NCBI GenBank assembly: GCA_005882295.1
Contig: VBAI01000155.1
Location: 1-38,232, forward strand
Direction: 5' to 3'
Length of the DNA stretch: 38,232 bases
DNA from: Candidatus Segetimicrobium genomatis
Lineage (GTDB): Bacteria > Sysuimicrobiota > Sysuimicrobiia > Sysuimicrobiales > Kaftiobacteriaceae
In this document: positions 326 through 1,696 of the stretch, piece by piece
How the letters are laid out: each line of letters starts with the position of its first letter
Numbering within the stretch: the stretch's first letter is position 1
Made by a program: the position numbers and the translations under genes
The notes under the pieces: generated by a model
Databases searched by the model: none
Told to the model about the DNA's origin: nothing
The model's input: the letters and a program-made list of their open reading frames with translations, nothing else

Positions 326-630
326 CAGCCACCCTGCACCCTCTCCCCAATGGAGAGGGGAAGGAAGATGAGGTCCTGACGGACCTTCCACCATAACTGG
401 CGCGCCCGTAGGGATTTGAACCATTCGACTCGCCCGACCGTTTGTCGGGCTCGCTCATGGCCTTTCGGCCCCCGGCCAGCGCTCGAACTCGCCCTATCGG
501 GCGGCTCGCGCTTCAGGAGGACTGGCGTCCCCCTGATCGCTCGCAACACAAAATCGGATTCTTCTGAGATTTCGGTCGTGCTTGCTGCACCTCTTAAAGC
601 GGTACCGCGGAGGAATTCTTCCTCCGCAGC
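326..630 (-). repeat. tRNA-tail block A: homologous structured block with tRNA-Arg 3' end
   Basis: This stretch fills most of the gene-free gap 266-691 and is homologous to the block at 1299-1583. Read on the minus strand it has: a GCGGTACCGC palindrome (599-608); a 9-bp hairpin at 607-627; a 72-base segment (476-547) identical to block B except at one base; and 25 bases (398-422) identical to the 3' end of tRNA-Arg including CCA. Then come a 6-bp hairpin (371-386) and a CCCTCTCC/GGAGAGGG hairpin (339-359). Compared with block B it carries an insertion of about 50 bases (about 423-475) that breaks the T-stem. It could be an attachment-site remnant or a degraded structured RNA. No gene is supported here. 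Confidence 0.7.
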
Positions 631-691
631 CATGGCAAACGTAGCTGCGCCCAAAATCCTTTGTACCGGTCCGGTACCAGGTACCGTGAGT

Positions 692-1186
692 TCAGGTTTG
701 CAGCCAGCGAGGGCGCAGCCGCCAGTAGATTGCATCGATTGCACCTACTGCGTGGTCTCCCCAGTGTGATTGGAACAAATCCCGCCACAACCAAATGATT
801 TCTGACGGAGAAGCACCGTGTTCAGCAAGTCGCAGACCTTTTGAGAGATCGTGATGTATGTCTGAGATATCATCGGCTAGGCTAGCATGAGCTGGCTCCT
901 CCTTTTCGGTAGAATCGAACACCTTCCAATAATCGTCCGCCGACCCCAATTTGTCTCTCAAGATGCCGTAAATGGACCCCGCGCTTTCGGGTTCGGGTGC
1001 ATTCGTGTCAGTCTCTGGTTCGACGTCGGGTAGACCCATAGCCCCGCTGTACAAATCGGCGATCGCCTGTCCAACCCTCGTGAGGAATTCGAAGGTGGGG
1101 AGTTGTTCGGCTTCTGCGACAACACGCATGAATCGGTTTACCCGCCCGGTAAAGTCTTCGTAGATCCGTCTGTTTTCGTCGCTCAT
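692..1186 (-). CDS. DUF5063 domain protein
   Basis: A 164-residue acidic soluble protein with no signal peptide or membrane segment. The C-terminal half matches the DUF5063 pattern as I remember it: a LADDISDIHHDLSKGL segment (about residues 104-119), then WLWRDLFQSHWGDHAVGAI (about 131-149) rich in Trp and His. The family has no known biochemical function. The gene lies alone between two homologous tRNA-tail blocks. If those blocks are attachment sites, this gene is cargo of a roughly 1-kb insertion. ATG at 1186 is the only sensible start; no strong Shine-Dalgarno sequence precedes it. Codon use is less GC-biased than in the metabolic genes to the right, which fits a transferred segment. Confidence 0.65.
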   Translation of the reverse strand: MSDENRRIYEDFTGRVNRFMRVVAEAEQLPTFEFLTRVGQAIADLYSGAMGLPDVEPETDTNAPEPESAGSIYGILRDKLGSADDYWKVFDSTEKEEPAHASLADDISDIHHDLSKGLRLAEHGASPSEIIWLWRDLFQSHWGDHAVGAIDAIYWRLRPRWLQT

Positions 1187-1298
1187 GATCGGACGCTCAG
1201 AGCTACAGCTTCACGTCATGTTGAGACTATCATGTCCTGGGCCAACGAAGGTTAGCTGTTAATCACGCACATACTCAACAGGGAAACCCCAAAAAGAC

Positions 1299-1583
1299 CC
1301 CTCACCCTGCACCCTCTCCCCAGGGAGAGGGGAATAAGGATCAAGGCCGCCAAAAGGCGGCCTTCTACCAAGACTGGCGCGCCCGTAGGGATTTGAACCC
1401 CCGACCAGCGCTCGCACTCGCCCTATCGGGCGGCTCGCGCTTCAGGAGGACTGGCGTCCCCCTGATCGCTCGCAACGAAGTTACGCCCTTCTCTTGAGAT
1501 GTACCTTGTGCTCGCTGCCCCCTGAAGCGGTACCGCGGGGGAATTCTTCCCCCACAACCCCCTGAAGGTCTGGGGTTCAAATC
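1299..1583 (-). repeat. tRNA-tail block B: homologous structured block with tRNA-Arg 3' end
   Basis: The second copy of the block, lying in the gene-free gap 1187-1620. Read on the minus strand it runs: a 20-base antisense copy of the tRNA-Arg T-arm region (1564-1583); a 9-bp hairpin (1535-1555) beside a GCGGTACCGC palindrome (1527-1536); the 72-base conserved segment (1405-1476); and 27 bases (1375-1401) identical to the tRNA-Arg 3' end with encoded CCA. A 9-bp hairpin (1343-1364) and a CCCTCTCCC hairpin (1312-1331) follow. The hairpin at 1535-1555 differs from its block A counterpart by one compensatory pair (A-T to G-C) and one change to a wobble, so the fold seems conserved rather than just the sequence. 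Confidence 0.7.
1343..1364 (-). terminator. Hairpin downstream of tRNA-like tail in block B
   Basis: A perfect 9-bp inverted repeat (AAGGCCGCC / GGCGGCCTT) with a four-base T loop on the minus strand lies 10 bases beyond the CCA of block B. Block A has a different 6-bp hairpin in the equivalent place. No clean U-run follows, so terminator function is only suggested by position and stem strength. Confidence 0.35.
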
Positions 1584-1655
1584 TGTTTTAGTGTCGCAAG
1601 TAGACAGAGAAGAAAGAACTTGGCGCGCCCGTAGGGATTTGAACCCCAGACCTTC
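1564..1655. repeat. 20-bp perfect inverted repeat spanning the tRNA-Arg 3' half
   Basis: GAAGGTCTGGGGTTCAAATC at 1564-1583 is the exact reverse complement of 1636-1655, which is the variable loop and T-arm of the tRNA-Arg gene. The 52 bases between include the tRNA 3' end. In RNA read from the minus strand the two arms could pair and compete with tRNA folding. In DNA the pair could be a scar of an inverted duplication. An assembly artefact is also possible. Confidence 0.8.
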
Positions 1656-1696
1656 GGCTCCGGAGGCCGACGCTCTATCCGCTGAGCTACGGGCGC
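1621..1696 (-). tRNA. tRNA-Arg, anticodon CCG
   Basis: The minus strand folds as a complete cloverleaf of 76 bases with encoded CCA. The acceptor stem is GCGCCCG / CGGGCGC with discriminator G. The D-arm is GCTC...GAGC. The anticodon stem is TCGGC / GCCGA with loop CTCCGGA, giving anticodon CCG (reads CGG, arginine). The T-arm is TGGGG-TTCAAAT-CCCTA. The 3' end of this gene recurs at 1375-1401 and 398-422, making it a likely integration target. Confidence 0.95.

Follow-up and report, generated by a model that had tools for sequence, protein, structure and literature searches.

GOLLD is a structured noncoding RNA found adjacent to tRNA genes. In addition, the T-loop of genes for tRNA and transfer-messenger RNA (tmRNA) is known as one class of site for integrative islands (Islander; PMC4383910). 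Here, we describe a family of short units that lie mostly at the 3′ ends of such genes and carry sequence of the tRNA next to them. The starting point was a 38,232-nucleotide stretch of Candidatus Segetimicrobium genomatis (contig VBAI01000155.1, positions 1 to 38,232 of the forward strand; "the window"), whose lineage corresponds to Sysuimicrobiota/CSP1-3 (PMC11604079). On its minus strand, block B (1375-1583) and block A (398-650) are located 3′ of the tRNA-Arg(CCG) gene (1621-1696), and both had been predicted from the letters alone to form a small RNA with a tRNA-like 3′ end and a terminator. That prediction noticed both blocks and overlooked the tRNA-Arg(CCG) gene itself, a 20/20 inverted copy of part of it, a DUF5063 gene, and a genome-wide family. 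The units of this family have a common architecture, an inverted arm that matches the host tRNA, a covarying core, and a restricted distribution. From these features we infer that they may move and may function as RNA, and we give about an even chance to their being nonautonomous elements that insert at the tRNA T-loop, restore the tRNA 3′ end, and are cotranscribed as structured RNAs.

We denote the tRNA segment from variable loop to T-loop as L and that from T-loop to CCA as R. The host gene and unit B comprise the following features.

1621-1696, minus strand: intact tRNA-Arg(CCG), the host gene of the unit (ARAGORN; Rfam RF00005, 69.1 bits)
1621-1644, minus strand: T-loop-to-CCA part of tRNA-Arg(CCG), within the host gene
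1584-1620, minus strand: spacer 3′ of the tRNA-Arg CCA, with no CCA hairpin, unlike most other units (20-22 bp)
1564-1583, minus strand: inverted copy of the tRNA-Arg variable loop, 5′ T-stem strand, and T-loop (20/20 to tRNA 1636-1655; own-tRNA match 16/16)
1406-1566, minus strand: core of unit B, type I (model R1, 152.2 bits; model R2, 38.9 bits)
1535-1555, minus strand: core hairpin H1 of B, GTGGGGGAA-GAA-TTCCCCCGC
1464-1520, minus strand: GCAGCGAGC, 36 variable bases, and GCGAGCGATC in B, forming helix P2 with tandem G-A and a variable loop of fixed length
1444-1463, minus strand: core hairpin H2 of B, AGGGGGACGCCAGTCCTCCT
1409-1440, minus strand: core helix P3 of B, enclosing CGCCC-GATA-GGGCG
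1399-1407, minus strand: weakened copy of the variable loop and 5′ T-stem strand, GGTCGGGG versus GGTCTGGGG in the tRNA
1375-1398, minus strand: direct copy of tRNA-Arg(CCG) from T-loop to CCA (24/24)
1343-1364, minus strand: terminator-like hairpin 3′ of unit B

With block B as the query against the window's genome and its relatives, homologous blocks were found behind Gly, Ala, Val, and Arg tRNAs and behind tmRNA. About 40 units were examined, all of them in metagenome assemblies of uncultured bacteria, in which several contigs, C121 in particular, are short and rearranged. Most units lie directly 3′ of a tRNA or tmRNA, with about 20 anticodons represented. The units measure about 200 to 260 bp and have no genes of their own, and their parts usually follow the order L-R(CCA), hairpin, degenerate inverted R, inverted L, G-rich core, weakened L, R(CCA), and often a terminator. 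The hairpin after the first R begins in CCA and has a stem of 20 to 22 bp whose sequence differs from tRNA to tRNA; in the 23 units that bear it, the mismatches comprise 28 G-U versus 3 A-C (P about 5e-6). This CCA hairpin is missing from the Arg(CCG) units of the window.

The inverted L matched the tRNA in at least 13 of 16 positions at about 33 of the 86 tRNA/tmRNA loci first examined, the remaining loci being at background, and pairing with the downstream regions of other tRNAs reached at least 14 in just 4 of 430 control trials. When the fit of each arm was scored over 41 units, the unit's own tRNA was strictly the best partner in 26, tied in 13, and not the best in 2, and the covariation score between arm and tRNA was 0.503 compared to at most 0.144 for slid controls. 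The displaced R begins at the T-loop and is mostly 22 to 24/24 identical to that of the host (19 units; two tmRNA units were lower). Since about 40 homologous units each match their own tRNA, the correspondence is far beyond chance. As the tail of each copy elsewhere likewise matches that copy's own tRNA, the unit belongs to a tRNA gene, as either a nested insertion or a 3′ appendage. The T-arm, acceptor, and CCA ends originally read into both blocks are thus the T-loop-to-CCA stretch of tRNA-Arg(CCG), at 1375-1398 in B (24/24) and over the same stretch in A (398-421). Of the small RNA with a tRNA-like 3′ end, the structure was supported; the tail is the displaced 3′ end of the upstream tRNA gene, not an end proper to a free-standing RNA. 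Judged by sequence, the "small RNA with tRNA-like tail" is better described as a structured element that lies nested within a host tRNA gene, at its 3′ end.

The behavior of the arm bears on a different explanation, in which a host-owned, cis-acting RNA domain uses the CCA hairpin and arm as a switch or processing device for maturation or folding of the upstream tRNA, second 3′ end included. In the 19 units with both parts, the inverted L paired better with the intact tRNA (15.1/16) than with the weakened L (11.5/16). Arm and tRNA have changed together between the orthologues of tmRNA and Gly(CCC) in genomes G000 (the window's) and G001, and the CCA hairpin is held at 20 to 22 bp with a strong G-U bias despite its differing sequence; all of this would suit such a device, as would the lack of any mobility enzyme found. 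Against it, the arm:tRNA mismatches lack a G-U excess (G-U:A-C, 5:7), unlike a selected RNA helix. This suggests that the arm match may be kept by DNA-level copying instead. We regard the host-owned device as rather doubtful.

The arm without G-U bias would also suit a family of DNA attachment or recombination sites. Such sites would be built of direct and inverted halves taken from the tRNA T-loop, would fold as cruciforms or as single strands of DNA, and would accumulate gene cassettes 3′ of tRNAs. Folded single-strand attachment sites of the attC and CTX type are recombined by a tyrosine recombinase. Consistent with this, GTTC is the meeting point of the half-sites in the tRNA, the inverted copy, and the direct copy, and genes occupy the interval between two units or the one separating a tRNA from its displaced end: DUF5063 in the window, a SIR2-like gene in locus L113, and a GIY-YIG gene in locus L196. 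The G-U over A-C bias of the CCA hairpin and core, which indicates RNA from one strand, and the window's genome, which has no integron-type or island integrase, speak against such sites, and we consider them unlikely. At L196 (1262-1525, genome G001), the GIY-YIG gene stands between tRNA-Ser(CGA) and a displaced 3′-end copy with no core, and the tRNA-bearing segment is inverted relative to G000.

Evidence for RNA structure came from the core. In an alignment of 54 distinct rows, 93.1% of cells were paired and double changes occurred in 27 of 38 pairs; the covariation score was 0.213 compared to 0.030 to 0.056 for slid structures, in an alignment fitted to the model, which favors the core score. 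The small hairpin of core types II and III, cut out without the model, was 96.7% paired and scored 0.784, with controls at or below 0.254. Mismatches in the core were G-U:A-C 22:9, and the G-U excess seen there and in the CCA hairpin argues for an RNA transcribed from the tRNA strand. The original prediction of a structured minus-strand RNA was therefore supported: homologues were found, the core covaries far above slid controls, and the mismatches favor G-U. The hairpin it had seen in both blocks (607-627 and 1535-1555) does carry one A-T/G-C double change and one wobble change with the same GAA loop, and its 71/72 segment is contained in a 79-base repeat of about 97% identity (469-547 versus 1398-1476).

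Other roles for parts of the core found little or no backing. Type I cores contain a hypervariable stretch, mostly of 34 to 39 bases, between GCAGCGAGC and GCGAGCGATC; examined for a guide-like match to the tRNA of the same unit, this stretch gave no signal (mean rank, 0.53), and as a hairpin it was weak at best (mean z, −0.36; standard error, 0.21). A T-box, suggested by a plus-strand GGTACCGCGG stretch, had no Rfam match, and the stretch is not kept in other copies. Searched against Rfam 15, T-box, tmRNA, and group I/II introns included, the core reached the gathering score of no family; the only matches above threshold were to tRNA, and other hits were weak.

The covariation also argues against neutral debris, that is, remnants of tRNA islands and palindromic repeats whose inverted copies are kept perfect by template switching in quasi-palindromes. 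It is true that tRNA 3′ ends are insertion hot spots and that truncated units occur often here, as do other palindromic repeats. Yet a core that covaries far above slid controls already disfavors this explanation, the order of parts is consistent across dozens of units in three families of the phylum, and correction by template switching would need to pass over the acceptor part, which has not been preserved, yet restore the arm on its far side. We consider debris very improbable.

The second block and the gene that separates it from unit B comprise the following features.

692-1186, minus strand: DUF5063 protein gene, 164 amino acids, between units B and A (Pfam PF16702, E 8.9e-23)
477-638, minus strand: core of unit A, type I, with no inverted T-arm copy ahead (model R1, 125.3 bits)
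607-627, minus strand: core hairpin H1 of A, GCGGAGGAA-GAA-TTCCTCCGC
422-460, unstranded: dispersed palindromic repeat interrupting the T-arm copy of A (pattern shared with L186, 3′ of tRNA-Ser)
398-421, minus strand: direct copy of tRNA-Arg(CCG) from T-loop to CCA in A
371-386, minus strand: terminator-like hairpin 3′ of unit A

The insertion reported in block A is present and corresponds to the repeat at 422-460. To call the block a pseudogene was fair in effect, as the repeat sits within the T-arm copy and the inverted arm is missing. Hairpins of differing sequence do stand at the same place behind both blocks, at 1364-1343 (B) and 386-371 (A), and are terminator-like. Several other repeats were seen. 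The palindrome CATTCGACTCGCC...GGCTCGCTCATGG occurs in block A (422-460) and, at another place in the genome, directly 3′ of tRNA-Ser (L186, 913-950), and another, TGCACCACTCGC...GCATGG, is located 3′ of many tRNAs in the window's genus. Repeats of the form CACCCTGCACCCTCTCCCC...GGAGAGGG lie behind both blocks (window 1303-1337 and 330-360) and behind many units; their likeness to whalefall-1 RNA is weak and subthreshold.

We further investigated the distribution of the family in 386 genomes, of which 43 belong to Sysuimicrobiota (CSP1-3/ANGP1) and about 343 lie outside the phylum. The ANGP1 label is one that we take to be linked with the Sysuimicrobiota/CSP1-3 name. Two covariance models were used, R1 built from 11 unit copies and R2 from core types II/III, both with rough E-values owing to a shortened calibration. 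The family was present in 8 of the 43 Sysuimicrobiota genomes: G000, G001, and G002 of the window's genus; G004, G005, and G007 of its family; and G012 and G014 of other families within its order. None of the approximately 343 genomes outside the phylum gave a family match, and no match to units was found in the phages, plasmids, and viral contigs searched. A strict scan of GTDB contigs for the type I pattern returned only ANGP1/Armatimonadetes-labeled relatives and one Nitrospirae-labeled contig of a metagenome-assembled genome. This contig (L113) holds two type I cores, a SIR2-like gene, and a tyrosine-recombinase-like fragment, and is probably misbinned or transferred.

Within this range the units are patchy. 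Their presence at a given tRNA varies between species, the same tRNA bears different core types in different species, and most tRNAs of a unit-bearing genome have no unit; all three observations count against a host-owned RNA device. In G000, units favor C34 tRNAs (8/9 versus 2/20; P about 9e-5), a pattern that better survival of insertions in tRNAs that can be replaced would produce. In a tree from a single short alignment, and so weakly supported, units from different tRNAs of G014 or of G005 cluster together and the others cluster by tRNA. At the tRNA-His of G001 (L180, about 1246-1310), the core stops after GCGAGCGATC and an ATG frame follows immediately.

The nonautonomous element that we favor would enter a tRNA gene at GTTC in the T-loop and bring a new stretch from T-loop to CCA, leaving the tRNA intact and shifting the old end to the far side of the element, as in tRNA-nested islands. 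It would move between tRNA genes and, on arrival, take sequence of the new host tRNA for its inverted arm and displaced end. Transcribed along with the tRNA, its core would fold as RNA, and the inverted arm and weakened copy could close a stem around it. Movement is favored by the homologous cores at about 20 tRNA species with arms fitted to each host, the differing core types at one tRNA, the weakly supported tree, the genes found between units or ahead of a displaced end, and the C34 preference in G000. The moving enzyme may be supplied in trans, by Xer or by an element outside these assemblies, or may have been lost.

Several results weigh against this proposal. The window's genome has just two tyrosine recombinases, each resembling Xer in its sequence as well as its setting; among the 8 unit-bearing genomes, reverse transcriptase (PF00078) occurs in G007 alone and is missing from the other 7, the window's included; and IS110 (PF01548) is absent from G000, G001, G005, G007, and G012 and present in G002, G004, and G014. 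Comparison of empty and filled sites yielded inversions, truncations, and core swaps with no clean pair, and no excised circle was seen. Many units have orthologues at the same tRNA in other species, which requires any movement to be slow; in G001 the preference for C34 tRNAs is weaker, a trend only (P = 0.06); and no known mechanism accounts for arms that adapt to every newly occupied tRNA. The units themselves hold no integrase gene, in a search that covered tyrosine integrases. Tyrosine integrase, reverse transcriptase, and IS110 were each considered as the mover, and none tracks the distribution of the units. A bolder and less likely reading is that the units represent a wholly new class of RNA, mobile or regulatory, in which each copy would derive an antisense arm and a spare 3′ end from its host tRNA. 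Base pairing of this RNA to the tRNA or its gene would then direct movement or action, with no known mobility enzyme required.

Some loci depart from the usual arrangement. Tandem repeats of R, hairpin, and inverted L stand behind the displaced R in L065 and L210 and fit either circle integration or unequal crossing-over at R repeats. In L201 (466-1461), a frame overlapping a XerC/D-like gene has a stretch that by eye is LAGLIDADG-like. The only tRNA-Ala(TGC) match of the window's genome (L051; G000:C121:1-3987) is split at its variable loop by a core that has no inverted arm; its halves, if joined, would make a good tRNA, and a second tRNA-Ala 3′ part lies 2.6 kb onward. Because the assembly is 93% complete and the contig short and rearranged, we do not claim splicing here, and a missing gene, a rearrangement, and an intron-like state cannot be told apart.

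If the elements move, their arms adapt to each new tRNA, unlike those of any known tRNA-targeting element this small; if they are host owned, they would constitute a layer of tRNA control so far unknown. With either reading, the units offer a direct handle on how tRNA 3′ ends turn into hot spots, and they may mislead annotation of tRNAs and small genes in the phylum Sysuimicrobiota.

Compared to known systems, the units resemble structured RNAs in Rfam such as GOLLD in being conserved, covarying RNA near tRNA genes, but they are much smaller, have arms copied from the adjoining tRNA, and lack an Rfam 15 match above threshold; in Rfam and the open-license papers searched, we found no precedent for an RNA family that covaries and whose arms are fitted to about 20 different host tRNAs. 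Like repetitive extragenic palindromic (REP)/REPIN sequences and miniature inverted-repeat transposable elements (MITEs) (PMC3116915, PMC2817692), they are short, multicopy, and palindrome rich, with no internal gene. They differ from both in being tied to tRNA 3′ ends, carrying host-tRNA sequence, and lacking terminal inverted repeats common to copies; with respect to MITEs in particular, the unit ends are host-tRNA sequence that differs per tRNA, and no full-length partner was seen. As in archaeal split and intron-bearing tRNA genes (PMC3293823, PMC4033280), tRNA fragments are parted by inserted DNA and helices join tRNA-derived parts. Here, however, the tRNA ahead of the unit is whole, and splicing is unnecessary, with the possible exception of the C121 tRNA-Ala(TGC). 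With islands nested in tRNA and tmRNA genes (PMC4383910), the units share an intact tRNA, inserted DNA, a displaced 3′ fragment, and the T-loop as crossover region. They differ from these islands in their size of about 200 to 260 bp, in that most have no integrase or cargo, in the recurrence of one homologous core at many tRNAs of a genome, and in the extra inverted copy of the other half of the host tRNA.
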